Source: Anaerolineales bacterium (GTDB lineage: Bacteria; Chloroflexota; Anaerolineae; Anaerolineales; Villigracilaceae). From it: a stretch of 37,506 bases of DNA. The DNA is taken from contig JABFSL010000010.1 of NCBI GenBank assembly GCA_013140605.1, positions 1-37,506 on the forward strand, given 5' to 3'. This document shows positions 135-24,203 of this stretch, piece by piece. Each line of letters begins with the position of its first letter. Positions within the stretch are counted from its first letter, which is position 1. Under the pieces are notes generated by a model, which saw only the letters and a program-made list of their open reading frames with translations, was not told the DNA's origin and ran no database searches. The position numbers and the translations under genes were made by a program.

Positions 135-177
135 GAAATAGCACCACTCAAAAGATTAGCAGAAAATATATATGAGT

Positions 178-253
178 ACGAAAAGGCAAACTCATCGCGA
201 GATGGGGGCGCAAAGTCATGGATCTGTTTGCAACAGACCGCCAGACCGCCGAA
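178..253 (+). promoter_or_regulatory. Cyclic-di-GMP-I (GEMM-I) riboswitch aptamer
   Basis: The hallmark order of the GEMM-I aptamer is present. GGCAAAC (185-191) is followed by a hairpin with a GNRA loop (CATC 193-196, loop GCGA, GATG 201-204). Then come GGGGGCGCAAAG up to 215, a second hairpin (TCTG 223-226 with CAGA 234-237), and the 3' segment ACCGCCAGACCGCCGAA ending at 253, which fits the tetraloop-receptor side and the aptamer 3' end. This class binds cyclic di-GMP. Its last bases are also the 5' arm of the following terminator, so ligand binding should compete with termination. This arrangement predicts activation by c-di-GMP (inference). The controlled gene is the secreted protease at 367. 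Confidence 0.85.
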
Positions 254-3455: not shown

Positions 3456-3485
3456 TTGACTCAATTTTCTTCTGCATGGTAAACT
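3456..3485 (+). promoter_or_regulatory. Candidate promoter of leader peptide/GNAT operon
   Basis: TTGACT (3456-3461) and TAAACT (3480-3485) are separated by 18 nt. Transcription would start near 3492, giving a leader of about 40 nt before the small ORF at 3532. Confidence 0.5.
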
Positions 3486-3531
3486 CTGCCCGCTTGAAAA
3501 AAGCAAATCTAATGAAAGGAGGCGCACGCCC

Positions 3532-3618
3532 ATGTTTATGAACAAGTTTTACATCACACTTTCTCTCACCGGCGAAGCTGGTGGTGTTGATTCTCGCAGT
3601 GCGCCTGCTGCCTGTTAG
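3532..3618 (+). CDS. 28-codon leader peptide, putative attenuator ORF
   Basis: A short ORF begins with MFMNKFYITL and ends with SRSAPAAC before TAG. It is preceded by an unusually strong ribosome site, AAAGGAGG (3516-3523), 8 nt from the ATG. It shows no similarity that I recognise. It stands between a good promoter and two tandem terminators and is followed by an acetyltransferase operon. This is the layout of translational attenuation leaders, in which a ribosome stalled on the peptide changes downstream RNA folding. The peptide is hydrophobic in its first half and has no codon run for a single amino acid that would point to an amino-acid biosynthesis attenuator. An in-frame ATG at 3538 is an alternative start. 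Confidence 0.6.
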   Translation: MFMNKFYITLSLTGEAGGVDSRSAPAAC

Positions 3619-3634
3619 ACTGGTATTGTCGTCT

Positions 3635-3670
3635 ACGGCCACGGCGTCACTGAGACCCGTGGCCGTTTTT
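3635..3670 (+). terminator. Leader terminator 1
   Basis: A perfect 10-bp stem pairs ACGGCCACGG (3635-3644) with CCGTGGCCGT (3657-3666) and is followed by TTTTATTT. It begins 17 nt after the leader peptide stop codon. Confidence 0.85.
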
Positions 3671-3682
3671 ATTTAATCTTGG

Positions 3683-3716
3683 CGGCCATGGGTTAATGAC
3701 CTGTGGCCGTTTTTTA
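3683..3716 (+). terminator. Leader terminator 2, near-copy of terminator 1
   Basis: CGGCCATGGG (3683-3692) pairs with CCTGTGGCCG (3700-3709), including two G-T pairs, and is followed by TTTTTTT. Its 5' arm can pair instead with the 3' arm of terminator 1 (3657-3665) through 9 bp, which would break both terminators. The acetyltransferase gene starts 36 nt downstream. Confidence 0.82.
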
Positions 3717-3751
3717 TTTGTGCCCGCATAAGCGGGAGGAGTTAGGAAATC

Positions 3752-4330
3752 ATGTTGGATATTCAAACCCAGTTGTTTGAAGCGAAGGATGTTCGTTTCG
3801 GTCCCATCGACCATGAGACGCATCCCGAAATTGAATCCAAATGGACGCATGATGCAGATTTCATGCGCCTGATGGAACTGAAACCCGTCCGTCCGCTTTC
3901 GCCTGCGATGGTGAAGAAGCAATATGAAGCCATCGAAAAGGATATGGATGAGAACAAGAATCTGTACTATTTCACCATCCGCGCCCGCGAAGATGACCGT
4001 TTTATTGGCAAGGCGCTCGTGGAGTGGATTGATTGGACGAACGGTAACGGCTTTATCGGCCTTGGCATTGGCGCGGTTGAAGACAGACGCAAAGGTTATG
4101 GTTCGCAGGCTTTAAGCTTGTTACTGCGCTATGCTTTTGGCGAATTGAATCTGTATCGCGTCACAGCGGTTGTGCCTGCCTACAATGAAGGCGCGATCCG
4201 TCTCTTTCAGAAGTTCGGTTTTATGGAAGAGGTCCGCAGGCGCAAGGCCATTCATCGTGATGGAGAATTTTGGGACCTCATCTCTTTCGGCCTGTTAAAT
4301 GCCGAATGGCGCGAGCAGACGTCGGCGTAG
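3752..4330 (+). CDS. RimJ/RimL-type GNAT N-acetyltransferase (1 of 3 tandem)
   Basis: This 192-residue protein transfers acetyl groups from acetyl-CoA to an amine. The GNAT fold is evident: the acetyl-CoA pyrophosphate-binding loop is RRKGYGSQAL (residues about 112-121), followed by the typical LNLYRVTAVVPAYNEGAIRLF region and FGF. In RimJ/RimL relatives the substrate is the N-terminus of a ribosomal protein or an antibiotic amine; the substrate here is unknown. It is the first gene after the leader peptide and tandem terminators, and its GGGAGG lies at 3733-3738. Two similar genes follow within a few bases, suggesting local duplication. Confidence 0.9.
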   Translation: MLDIQTQLFEAKDVRFGPIDHETHPEIESKWTHDADFMRLMELKPVRPLSPAMVKKQYEAIEKDMDENKNLYYFTIRAREDDRFIGKALVEWIDWTNGNGFIGLGIGAVEDRRKGYGSQALSLLLRYAFGELNLYRVTAVVPAYNEGAIRLFQKFGFMEEVRRRKAIHRDGEFWDLISFGLLNAEWREQTSA

Positions 4331-4339
4331 GGTGAAGTG

Positions 4340-4900
4340 ATGAAAGACTTATATCGCGGCACCCTCGTCCGTCTCGCATCCGAGTCGCCGGAGACCATGT
4401 CCAAATCCTTTGTCAAATGGGATCGTGACTCAGAAGCCCACCGCCTCGGTGACAGCGCACCCGCGCACTTGTGGTCTGAGAAAAAGCTCAAAGAGTTCGT
4501 TGAAAAGAACGACGACAAACAGGAGAACGCTTTTCGTTTTGCGATCCGTACGCTTGATGAAGATAAACTGATCGGTGTCACATCGCTGTGGGTTCAGCCT
4601 TGGGCTCACAGCGATGCCTGGCTTGGCATTTATATTGGCGAGCGCGATCACTGGGGCAGGGGCTTTGGCACCGATGCCATGCGCCTGATCGTACAGTATG
4701 GATTTTGCGAACTCAACCTGCGGCGCATTACGCTTGGCTTGCATTCTTATAACGTACGCGCGTTGAAGTCGTATTTAAAAGTTGGCTTTCAAATGGAAGG
4801 CAAAATTCGCAGTGAAGGCCAGCGCGATGGCGCGCGCTATGACGGCCTTTATATGGGCTTGCTGCGCGAAGAATGGGACGCCTTGCAAGGTGCGAAATGA
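4340..4900 (+). CDS. RimJ/RimL-type GNAT N-acetyltransferase (2 of 3 tandem)
   Basis: This 186-residue GNAT has the CoA-binding loop HWGRGFGTDAM, then LNLRRITLGLHSYNVRAL and the terminal GLLREEW motif shared with its two neighbours. It starts 9 nt after the previous stop codon. GTG at 4337 is in frame directly before ATG 4340; the ATG is preferred because the GGTGAAG segment lies just upstream. It overlaps the next gene by 4 bp (ATGA), so translation is probably coupled. Substrate unknown; the close relatives acetylate ribosomal protein N-termini. Confidence 0.9.
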   Translation: MKDLYRGTLVRLASESPETMSKSFVKWDRDSEAHRLGDSAPAHLWSEKKLKEFVEKNDDKQENAFRFAIRTLDEDKLIGVTSLWVQPWAHSDAWLGIYIGERDHWGRGFGTDAMRLIVQYGFCELNLRRITLGLHSYNVRALKSYLKVGFQMEGKIRSEGQRDGARYDGLYMGLLREEWDALQGAK

Positions 4901-5475
4901 AAGCTCTGTTGAAAGGCAATCTGGTAAGGCTTTCCGCCGTAGACCATGAAGAACTTGGAAAGGCTTATGCCAAATGGAATCGCGACTCCGAGTTGAAGCG
5001 ATTGCTTGATTCTGGAGCATCGCGCTTGCACTCATCAAAAGCGGGTATTGCTTTCTTTGAGAAAGATCTCGAAAAAGCATCTGACGCTCAGTATTATTTT
5101 TGTATCCGCGCCATTGAAGATGATCGCTTGCTTGGCGACATCAATCTCGATGTCGTCAACAACTGGGCTTCGCGCAATGCCTTCGTTGGGATTGGCATCA
5201 ACAATCGTGAAGACTGGGGCAAAGGTTATGGCACCGAGGCGATGAAACTCATGCTGCAATTTGCTTTCACCGAAGTAAACCTGTACCGCGTCACGCTCAC
5301 GGTCTTTGAATACAATCCGCGCGCGATCCGTTCTTATGAGAAGGCGGGCTTTCGCCATGAGGGCCGTTTGCGCGGCGCATTGCTCAAAGATGGAAAACGC
5401 TGGGATGTGCTTTATATGGGAATCTTGCATGAAGATTGGAAGGAGTTAAACGATGATAAAAGAACCGCTTCTTAA
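4897..5475 (+). CDS. RimJ/RimL-type GNAT N-acetyltransferase (3 of 3 tandem)
   Basis: This 192-residue GNAT begins MKALLKGNLVRLSAVDHEE, closely similar to the previous protein's KDLYRGTLVRLASES start. This makes ATG 4897, overlapping the upstream TGA, the likely start. The frame is open 24 nt further upstream, but that part does not match the family. The CoA loop is DWGKGYGTEAM, followed by VNLYRVTLTVFEYNPRAI and EKAGF. Its 3' end overlaps the next gene by 23 bp in another frame. The three tandem genes look like paralogues that have diverged well beyond recent duplication. Confidence 0.9.
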   Translation: MKALLKGNLVRLSAVDHEELGKAYAKWNRDSELKRLLDSGASRLHSSKAGIAFFEKDLEKASDAQYYFCIRAIEDDRLLGDINLDVVNNWASRNAFVGIGINNREDWGKGYGTEAMKLMLQFAFTEVNLYRVTLTVFEYNPRAIRSYEKAGFRHEGRLRGALLKDGKRWDVLYMGILHEDWKELNDDKRTAS

Positions 5476-6433
5476 TTCGACCCTGAACCTGCGTGCCACG
5501 CAATGGGCAGATGTCCACGCTGTAGCAAAACTCATCTACGATGTCTGCGAAGCCGATGGCGATGTAACAGTTGCATCTACGCCTGAAGAGTTGGAGCATG
5601 AATGGCATAGCGATAAATTCAACCCTGAATCAGACAGCTATGTCATTGAGACAAAAGATGGGCAGGTAATTGGTTACGGTGAGTTTTACAATGAGAAAGA
5701 CCACGCTCATTTGGATGCAGACATTTACGTGCATCCCCGCTTCAAAGGACTTGGCCTTATTGATGTATTACTTAAAAATATTGAAGAACGCTCACGCGAA
5801 GAAATGAAGCTTGCCGCGCCAGGCCTGCGCGTCTTTATCCGCAGCACCATGGATGGAAAAGATGAAGAATCCAAAAAAGCACATGAAAATGCTGGCTACG
5901 TTCCCGTCCGTTTTCACTGGCGCATGGAGATCAAACTGGACGAAGCGCCGCCAGTTCCAGCCTGGCCTGCTGGGATTGAATTGCGCCCATTTATTTGTGA
6001 GCAACATGCCCAAACTGTTTGGATGGCTGATAACGAAGCCTTCCGCGATCATTGGGGCAGCCATGACTCCACCTTCGAAGAATGGTCTCACCGAAAATTT
6101 GGCAAACCCGACTTTGACCCGACCCTATGGATGATCGCCTGGGATGGTGACGAGATTGCCGGGTTTTCACAGAATCGTTTCCGCATGGGAATTGGCTGGG
6201 TCGGCACCTTGGGAGTCCGCCGCCCCTGGCGCAAAAAGGGACTTGGTCTTGCATTGCTTCAACATTCTTTTGGTGAATTCTACAAACGCGGCATGAAAAC
6301 CATTGGTCTCGGCGTGGATGCCTCCAACCCGACAGGTGCGACTCGTCTTTATCAGGGTGCGGGGATGTATATTGCCAGTGAATTCATCACCTACGATAAG
6401 GTGCTGCGTCCCGGCCTGGAATTGGCGGAATAA
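5453..6433 (+). CDS. Double-domain GNAT acetyltransferase
   Basis: This 326-residue protein has two GNAT domains in tandem. The first (about residues 12-165) has the degenerate loop HPRFKGLGLIDVLL; the second (about 175-315) has the canonical RRPWRKKGLGLALLQHSF followed by LGVDASNPTGATRLYQGAGM. The two-domain layout resembles mycothiol synthase MshD and related proteins in which the C-terminal domain is catalytic. Mycothiol is not expected in this phylum, so the substrate is open. The ATG lies inside the preceding gene and GGAG at 5441-5444 serves as ribosome site. This is the last gene of the four-gene acetyltransferase operon. Confidence 0.88.
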   Translation: MIKEPLLNSTLNLRATQWADVHAVAKLIYDVCEADGDVTVASTPEELEHEWHSDKFNPESDSYVIETKDGQVIGYGEFYNEKDHAHLDADIYVHPRFKGLGLIDVLLKNIEERSREEMKLAAPGLRVFIRSTMDGKDEESKKAHENAGYVPVRFHWRMEIKLDEAPPVPAWPAGIELRPFICEQHAQTVWMADNEAFRDHWGSHDSTFEEWSHRKFGKPDFDPTLWMIAWDGDEIAGFSQNRFRMGIGWVGTLGVRRPWRKKGLGLALLQHSFGEFYKRGMKTIGLGVDASNPTGATRLYQGAGMYIASEFITYDKVLRPGLELAE

Positions 6434-7087: not shown

Positions 7088-7696
7088 ATGACAATTCGTG
7101 CTGTATTCTTTGATTTTGGCGGTGTGATCATGCGCACCGAATTTCAAGCCCCGCGCCAGCATTTGGCGGAGCGTTTTAATATGGATTACGATGATATTGA
7201 CAGGATCGTTTTCGCGAGCGAATCCGCCCGCCGCGCGTCAGTGGGTGAGATCACAGAAGAGGCACATTGGGCGGAAGTGTTGAAACGCTTGAAGCACCCA
7301 GCCTCTGAAGTAAAAAATTTTTCAGATGAATTCTTCGGCGGCGATGTGATCGACCGCGCGCTGGTTGAACATATCCGTTCGCTGCGCGGAAAGTTCCATA
7401 CAGGGTTGATCTCGAATGCGTGGAGCGGGTTGCGCTCGTTCTTGACTCGCGAGAAGATCATCGATGTTTTCGATACGGTCATCATCTCGGCGGAAGTGGG
7501 TACGGTCAAACCGTCAGCCAAAATATATGAACTCGCGTTGGAGCAGGCCAAAGTCGGCGCGAACGAAGCGGTCTTTGTAGATGATGTCTCTGCAAATATT
7601 GAAGGCTGTGAAAAAGTCGGCATGAAAGGCATCCTGTTCAAAGATCCACAGGAAACTTTGGATCAATTGAATCTTTTGTTGAAAATCAAAAAATAA
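7088..7696 (+). CDS. HAD-superfamily hydrolase
   Basis: This 202-residue cytoplasmic phosphatase/dehalogenase-type protein shows all four HAD motifs: nucleophile Asp9 in FFDFGGV, Ser109 in LISNAW, Lys141 in TVKPSAKIY, and Asp165/Asp166 in VFVDDVSAN. Residue 11 is Gly where classical phosphatases have the general-acid Asp. This FDFGGV form occurs in the HAD-IA group that includes the N-terminal domain of soluble epoxide hydrolase and ACAD10. Substrate unknown. The next gene starts 14 nt after its stop codon, so the two are probably cotranscribed. Confidence 0.9.
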   Translation: MTIRAVFFDFGGVIMRTEFQAPRQHLAERFNMDYDDIDRIVFASESARRASVGEITEEAHWAEVLKRLKHPASEVKNFSDEFFGGDVIDRALVEHIRSLRGKFHTGLISNAWSGLRSFLTREKIIDVFDTVIISAEVGTVKPSAKIYELALEQAKVGANEAVFVDDVSANIEGCEKVGMKGILFKDPQETLDQLNLLLKIKK

Positions 7697-24086: not shown

Positions 24087-24100
24087 CTTTTTAACAATTG

Positions 24101-24186
24101 AACGGGGAGCCTGCTCGACAGGCTGAGAGGAGCGCAAGTCGCTCGACCCGCATTACCTGATCTGGTTAATACCAGCGGAGGGACTC
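24101..24186 (+). promoter_or_regulatory. TPP riboswitch (THI element)
   Basis: The conserved THI-box features are present in order: GGGGAGCC, CTGAGAGG (24123-24130), GACCCG, ACCTGATCTGGTTAATACCAGCG, then GAGGGA ending near 24182. The element binds thiamine pyrophosphate and lowers downstream expression. The gene behind it makes TPP, followed by a thiamine-binding protein, which fits feedback control. Confidence 0.96.
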
Positions 24187-24203
24187 TTGATTCACTCACA
24201 GCC

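Follow-up and report, generated by a model that had tools for sequence, protein, structure and literature searches.

Attenuators of the trp type combine a leader ORF with mutually exclusive 1:2, 2:3 and 3:4 arms. Two further systems come from Bacillus subtilis: at the ABC-F gene vmlR, a ribosome stalled on a short upstream ORF (uORF) blocks an anti-antiterminator (PMC9226507), and the same stalled-ribosome logic has been proposed for the bmrB leader of bmrCD (PMC4191407), as described in the accessible parts of both reports. A survey of leader genes, in its accessible part, counts the Chloroflexi among the groups with too few genomes (PMC4833913). Our literature search, which covered few subscription papers, returned no leader-peptide or attenuation account for Anaerolineales, Anaerolineae or Villigracilis and no SRSAP leader peptide; a broader search gave systems from Bacillus, Streptococcus, Streptomyces and others.

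We analyzed a 37,506-nt stretch of Anaerolineales DNA (the window) in which a short ORF with its own Shine-Dalgarno (SD) sequence lies upstream of four GNAT acetyltransferase genes, probably on a common transcript given the position of the promoter. The elements of this leader are the following.

3456..3485, + strand: promoter TTGACT, 18-nt spacer, TAAACT, with TG ahead of the -10 box (consensus scan)
3515-3522, + strand: leader SD, AAAGGAGG
3520-3527, + strand: element A, AGGCGCAC, 5' arm of the anti-antiterminator, overlapping the SD (SD and A together span 3515..3527)
3532..3618, + strand: leader ORF of 28 codons, ATG at 3532 and TAG at 3616-3618, encoding MFMNKFYITLSLTGEAGGVDSRSAPAAC followed by the stop
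3597..3606, + strand: element B, CAGTGCGCCT, inside the Arg-Ser-Ala-Pro codons, with A or C as partner (covariation, folding)
3617..3634, + strand: stop-codon hairpin, AGAC 3617-3620 with GTCT 3631-3634, the inner part of the antiterminator (genus covariation)
3635..3674, + strand: terminator 1, arms 3635-3644 and 3657-3666 with U-tract (covariation)
3643..3652, + strand: element C, GGCGTCACTG, inside terminator 1 (folding, covariation)
3681..3718, + strand: terminator 2, arms 3683-3692 and 3700-3709
3752..4330, + strand: first GNAT acetyltransferase of the operon (Pfam PF13302, E 2.2e-17)
4337..6433, + strand: three more GNAT genes, 4337-4900, 4900-5475 and the two-domain 5453-6433

An initial annotation of this DNA had located the strong ribosome site, the 28-codon ORF and all four hairpin arms (3635-3644, 3657-3666, 3683-3692 and 3700-3709) correctly, and a terminator does follow the ORF as it claimed, although the gap between the leader stop and arm 1 is 16 nt in the window rather than 17 nt. 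Absent from it were the complementarity of the SD to the last ORF codons, the stop-codon hairpin and the antiterminator formed by B and C. The core of element B, GUGCGCC, lies in the last ORF codons, and in the predicted fold GGCG and CACTG of element C pair with B while one U is bulged between them. The conserved promoter sits 5' of both terminators, and the window leader folded better than 200/200 dinucleotide shuffles (z -5.84).

We consider it likely, from sequence comparison, that this leader is a ribosome-sensing transcription attenuator of the anti-antiterminator/antiterminator/terminator type, in which translation of the leader ORF probably decides whether transcription proceeds. Like vmlR, it has a uORF and this three-way RNA switch, and some of the related Anaerolineae leaders also precede ABC-F genes; unlike vmlR, where the accessible text gives a uORF of 3 codons, the ORFs here span 16-34 codons with B at their end, and the anti-antiterminator includes the ORF's own SD (PMC9226507). 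It resembles bmrB in ribosome-mediated attenuation and in the link to a multidrug ABC exporter, but the terminator described there lies inside the bmrB ORF and here lies past the stop codon (PMC4191407). Whereas vmlR (one gene) and bmrB each serve one operon in the accessible parts of these reports, the Anaerolineae leader class precedes many gene families (PMC9226507, PMC4191407). Four features that mark the vmlR/bmrB type were found here, namely an SD-led short ORF, a terminator, a mutually exclusive antiterminator and anti-antiterminator, and a downstream resistance or translation gene (the resistance function being putative). With trp-type attenuators the leader shares exclusive 1:2, 2:3 and 3:4 arms and a leader ORF, and differs from them in having neither a regulatory codon run nor biosynthetic genes and in an antiterminator that begins inside the ORF. 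The attenuator logic itself is already known; the leader is a new family, unusual for its architecture and for the many gene families it serves.

A DNA search matched the leader in 27/61 genomes, the window's own match counted, and every one belonged to the same genus, where 27/37 genomes had a match and 10/37 did not; there was no DNA match in 24 genomes of other families. Among the resulting 29 loci from 27 genomes, the order of promoter, SD, ORF and terminator was retained in 28/29, so that the conservation of the ORF and paired arms that the initial annotation had proposed as a check was borne out on both counts, the arm pairs also covarying. The exception, L015, carries a deletion that removed the ORF and terminator 1 while promoter and SD remain. 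Since the ORF body and terminator 1 are missing, expression of the GNAT operon behind this natural deletion (G022:C47) may be constitutive. TTGAC and TGNTARACT at 18-nt spacing were present in 27/27 genus leaders counted (L015 and L029 left out), ORF lengths ranged from 21 to 28 codons with differences of whole codons, and the stop-to-arm 1 distance was 16-21 nt (27 nt in L029). By eye, a small hairpin (GCTT..AAGC or CCTT..AAGG) also separates the promoter from the SD in many genus leaders.

The arms proposed for the two terminators fit their own partners better than any of 2000 swaps within the genus, for both 1:2 (z 8.1, n=26) and 3:4 (z 10.5, n=25). The same was true of 2:3 (z 6.8, n=25), with L015, L019 and L029 left out of all three tests and L020 as well wherever arm 3 or 4 enters. 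The helix of arm 2 with arm 3, which had been put at 9 bp and proposed to disable both terminators, is thus real, with 10 consecutive pairs in the window, 2 of them G-U; as an antiterminator, however, it is a relay that extends the switch to terminator 2, the main antiterminator being B:C together with the stop-codon hairpin. Pairing of arms 1 and 4 was rejected, since its z of 3.2 was exceeded by the best of 2000 swaps and, although present in the equilibrium fold, it would form too late in transcription. We also rejected translation past the leader stop towards the terminator arms, as the frame is not kept among loci (by eye).

Support for the stop-codon hairpin came from three of five covariation measures in the genus: cells changed on both sides numbered 26 versus 8.9 in shuffles, and for this measure, for paired cells and for score 0/500 shuffles were as good, while double-change pairs (71/500) and pair types (378/500) did not stand out. 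Its genus swap test gave z 4.9.

Elements A, B and C were compared over 137 leaders, that is, 152 minus 15 lacking AP near the ORF end. Own A:B partners paired at -15.8 kcal/mol versus -14.2 when swapped (z -12.4) and own B:C partners at -15.8 versus -14.3 (z -9.0), with 0/5000 permutations as good in either case; these swap tests take no account of phylogeny, but the control pairings carry the same bias and were flat (B:spacer z 0.0, B:terminator 3' arm +0.7, A:C +1.9). Coupling inside the genus alone was weak, because the elements barely vary there: ungapped pairing gave z 2.5 for A:B and 1.2 for B:C, and gapped pairing z -3.1 and -2.5 (n=27 for both), values that some of 5000 permutations equalled. 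On the ungapped genus-only value of 1.2 we had first rejected B:C, and we readopted it once gaps were allowed in the pairing and the larger leader set showed it. Among 20 leaders of other orders (18 genomes), hand-picked from the higher-scoring matches listed rather than drawn at random and with some B elements misplaced, A:B reached z -2.8 (31/5000 permutations as good) and B:C was matched by 0/5000 permutations, although no model there had included B:C.

Individual leaders show the same coupling. L074 has Ile in place of Ser (TTGCGCC) with GGCGCAA in both A and C, and the MFS leader L146 has GTGCGTC in B with GACGCAC in A. In a wide alignment, which was fitted to the structure and hence biased towards it, A:B was 92.3% paired and three of its pairs had changed in both strands of the helix, while pairing reached 95.1% in terminator 1 and 69.1% in the stop-codon helix; the whole structure exceeded 500/500 shuffles on 4/5 measures and 499/500 on the remaining one. 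Taken together, A:B, B:C and terminator 1 are coupled as judged by covariation, and they are mutually exclusive because their elements overlap. Comparative analysis supports the promoter, SD with A, ORF, B, stop-codon hairpin, C and terminator 1 as established parts of the leader, to which the GNAT copies of the genus add terminator 2 and the 2:3 relay.

To follow the leader beyond the genus, we used two covariance models. The first, R1, covers the SD to terminator 1; R2 was built from 52 diverse leaders. Given that members match their models by construction and that the genome draws include some that supplied members, R1 found the leader in 140/152 genomes of the family (24/26 genera) and 244/400 genomes of the order (92/130 genera) at E <= 0.01, and, with the cut-off at E <= 1e-4, in 30/400 genomes of the phylum, with 29 from the order and 1 from another order of the class. 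With the same reservation, R2 found it in 180/396 genomes of the class (113/207 genera, E <= 0.001) and in 33/400 genomes of the phylum (E <= 1e-5), 33/33 inside the class. Genomes had one to five leader matches.

A pattern scan of named genomes returned at least 119 stretches. Among the matches listed were 80 loci, of which 74 are labelled Anaerolinea, Anaerolineaceae, Anaerolineales, Anaerolineae, Chloroflexi or Villigracilaceae; the other 6 comprise 5 chance matches and 1 true copy under a Chthonomonas label. These labels are our basis for naming the class Anaerolineae. In 74/80 listed loci there is a short ORF that encodes AP close to its end, and two hold B in another frame. The L267 match (Mangrovitalea) was judged by eye to be chance despite such an ORF, and four further listed loci were rejected as chance matches in long genes. 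We regard 75/80 listed loci as credible.

A hairpin with U-tract within 36 nt of the leader stop, the range to which our terminator 1 finder was limited, was present in 152/152 leaders, compared with 16/152 shuffled sequences and 13/146 stretches farther downstream. B:C and the stop-codon hairpin together make one long hairpin that consumes the 5' arm of terminator 1. This antiterminator was stabler than terminator 1 in 106/137 leaders (17/27 in the genus), and in 88/137 its folding energy was over 2 sd lower than that of mononucleotide shuffles; the window leader is not among the 106, with -24.0 for terminator 1 and -21.6 for the antiterminator.

The outcome of folding depended on where a ribosome was placed. 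We folded the 137 leaders, with the RNA ending in the terminator loop, with a 31-nt ribosome footprint at each codon. Without a ribosome, A:B had 5.6 expected pairs and B:C 2.7, and at least 3 expected B:C pairs were present in 51/137 leaders; in this model the no-ribosome state is therefore imperfectly OFF. With the P site at the AUG to the third codon, B:C rose to 6.8 expected pairs and A:B fell to 0.2 or less, and leaders with at least 3 expected B:C pairs numbered 120/137 at the AUG, 102 at codon 3 and 62 at codon 6. At codons 5-12, A:B exceeded B:C (about 5 versus 3). A second, smaller B:C maximum appeared with the ribosome 6-8 codons ahead of the Ala of AP, where at 6-7 codons B:C once more exceeded A:B (3.4-4.5). 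From four codons ahead of this Ala through the stop, B:C was nearly nil, and with the P site on Ala or on the final codon 0/137 leaders had at least 3 expected B:C pairs. B is covered once the ribosome stands at the ORF end, which makes that end the wrong stall site for an ON state. In the full-length RNA at equilibrium, terminator 1 reached 0.82-0.96 whatever the ribosome state, so the ON state must be a matter of kinetic trapping.

We infer the inducer, the switching and its direction as follows. With no ribosome on the leader, A would pair with B, terminator 1 would form and the operon would be OFF. During normal translation, the first ribosome would reach the ORF end and cover B at the time when RNA polymerase transcribes terminator 1, again OFF. 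An inhibitor or a translation defect that holds the ribosome on the first codons would mask A and leave B free; free B would then form B:C and the stop-codon hairpin ahead of the terminator 3' arm, and terminator 1 would fail. In the GNAT copies of the genus, the freed arm 2 could capture arm 3, so that terminator 2 would fail as well and the operon would turn ON. The ribosome-stalling attenuation of the initial annotation thus keeps its ribosome-based logic, but a stall at the ORF end would leave arm 1 free, cover B and favor termination. A ribosome there would extend ~11 nt beyond the stop and leave arm 1 uncovered, if the leading edge is taken to lie 16 nt from the P-site codon, +16 being the position of the toeprint in the accessible part of the vmlR report (PMC9226507).

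The genes behind the leaders are diverse. Window-type GNAT is the next ORF in 22/28 genus leaders, while L003 precedes a two-domain GNAT and L029 an ABC exporter; no next ORF was called in 4/28, two of which (L017 and L028) visibly enter a similar GNAT. The exporter behind the L029 copy shows that acetyltransferases are not the only genes the leader serves. The proposed link to GNAT operons therefore holds for most of the genus copies and is not specific, given the exporter, ABC-F, MFS, RsgA and RIO genes found elsewhere. The window's genome alone contains five copies. Apart from the window copy ahead of the GNAT operon, they are followed by an ABC exporter (C17, Pfam), a gene grouped with ABC proteins (C69), an ABC-F gene (C116, a weak match with E 0.0044 for R1 and 0.0021 for R2) and a gene with a RIO domain (C46, R2 E 5e-7).

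Among 124 leaders beyond the 28 seeds, 121 had a next ORF called, which fell into an ABC-protein cluster (64), window-like GNAT (34), two-domain GNAT (10), a small cluster (4), an MFS-containing cluster (3) and singletons (6). Domain searches on 39 entries, with some proteins entered twice and some window genes having no leader in front, identified exporters with PF00664 and PF00005 behind L029, L067, L123 and L173; the nearest solved chains to the L067 exporter are multidrug exporters, with YheI lower in the list. The ABC-F family NF000355 scored above the NCBIfam cut-off in 3/4 genes searched (L076, L194 and L195) and slightly under it in L069, whose gene is cut by the locus edge; some of these ABC-F leaders are weak matches, and 2/4 lack an SD. 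Further genes are a DrrA-like ATPase (L078), an MFS protein (L146), RsgA (L184, L333 and L342) and RIO-domain proteins (L324, L334, L335 and L337). Misfits include a HAD hydrolase (L331), a methyltransferase (L345) and some unnamed genes.

Several smaller observations concern these genes. The ABC-F leaders L069 and L194 have TATAAT a few nt ahead of the ATG and no SD, and their ORFs are possibly leaderless and without element A. A HAD hydrolase lies behind both L331 (Pfam) and L339 (by eye), and a HAD gene is also present in the window at 7088-7696, past the GNAT operon. L075, L081, L086 and L185 precede related ORFs of 142-225 aa, candidates for new translation-stress genes; the L075 protein, the one of its group that was searched, matched no Pfam or NCBIfam family.

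Besides ribosome-sensing attenuation, we considered whether the leader is a peptide arrest switch, with its C-terminal R-S-A-P acting as a SecM/RAPP-like motif. The Ala would occupy the P site with Arg two residues earlier and Pro in the A site, and the nascent peptide would park the ribosome on B as a timed OFF lock whose arrest a small molecule or stress alters. Arg is present at -2 in 115/137 leaders and at +4 in 112/130 reaching that position, with bases 1-2 of these codons constrained and the third free (entropy 1.73 and 1.63 bits), which suggests some peptide constraint, and the Ser codon swaps between TCT and AGC among genus leaders. In the accessible parts of two arrest-peptide papers, RxPP with x = Ser, and RAGP, are able to support arrest, and SecM/ApdP RAPP-like peptides, also encoded by an upstream ORF, have a comparable Arg, small residue, residue and Pro close to their C-terminal end (PMC10987492, PMC12992588). 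RSAP, however, is not among the motifs found there, and the downstream families here differ from the sec/yidC of those systems (PMC10987492, PMC12992588).

The frame over B also varies. RAPP-like peptides carry RAPP, RGPP, RAGP or similar in a fixed frame; our leaders have RSAP, with other frames or residues in some members. B is read as TGC GCC TG(C/T) in L076, L084 and L089 and as GTG CGC CTN in L122, L209 and L266, giving peptides that end in SECAC or EVRLLTV just before the stop. Since B is read in three frames across members, the RNA and not the peptide is the invariant. In addition, Arg is replaced by Trp in 10/137 leaders and by T, L, Q or C outside the order, pN/pS is 0.77 when the paired codons are excluded (87 pairs; pN < pS in 52), the SAP codons are already constrained by pairing, and the last Arg of most relatives is lost in the window, where the final residue is Cys. 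We therefore regard arrest as the switch as unlikely.

A ligand-binding riboswitch or protein-bound leader in which the ORF is incidental would account for the large conserved fold, with A:B as a possible aptamer closing stem. We consider this very unlikely, as the first ATG past the SD opens the same frame in 146/146 leaders with a recognized SD (6/152 had none by pattern and were set aside), the SD is strong, the middle of the ORF is variable, and no Rfam family exceeded its gathering threshold at the leader site (best 20.4 bits versus 41). Plain tandem terminators that insulate the operon next to an unrelated leader ORF are highly improbable: the strength of both terminators and their conservation in the genus would fit, but insulation does not account for the coupling of A:B and B:C, seen over 137 leaders and repeated in the 20 of other orders, or for a conserved promoter upstream of both terminators. 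Attenuation of the trp/his type, in which an amino acid or charged tRNA acts through leader codons and to which a leader ORF with mutually exclusive hairpins would be suited, is the least probable reading, since by eye the leader has no single-codon run and the downstream families found are not biosynthetic.

Ribosome-sensing attenuation leaves the nature of the signal to be considered. ABC-F, RsgA and RIO proteins act on ribosomes, and it is for this reason that we take ribosome state as the signal. The downstream exporters, GNAT, MFS and ABC-F proteins are putative resistance or translation genes, and ribosomes that are blocked or faulty are the most likely signal. The link to translation inhibitors that the initial annotation thought plausible gains from the ABC-F, efflux, RsgA and RIO genes that related leaders precede. 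The family has the look of an alarm system, so far undescribed, that responds to blocked ribosomes. Tentatively, and on balance doubtfully, a single undescribed leader class could act as the translation-stress regulator of the whole class in place of a transcription factor, with several copies per genome co-inducing efflux, ribosome protection by ABC-F, acetyltransferases and the ribosome-maturation factors RsgA and RIO kinase, and with the arrest-like RSAP end parking the pioneer ribosome over B to time the OFF state.

The leader is used in the manner of a riboswitch class, one kind serving many gene families, in a class known mainly from metagenomes. It predicts which uncharacterized Anaerolineae genes respond to ribosome inhibition and suggests that their RimJ/L-like GNAT operons are among the responders. 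The family also offers a natural series for separating RNA from peptide effects, with three frames over B and with leaders that have or lack terminator 2 or an SD.

Two riboswitches were found elsewhere in the window: a c-di-GMP-I riboswitch at 175-253 (+ strand, 55.2 bits), behind which the ORF at 367-1749 resembles a subtilisin-type protease (translation, by eye), and a TPP riboswitch at 24093-24200 (+ strand, 72.3 bits).
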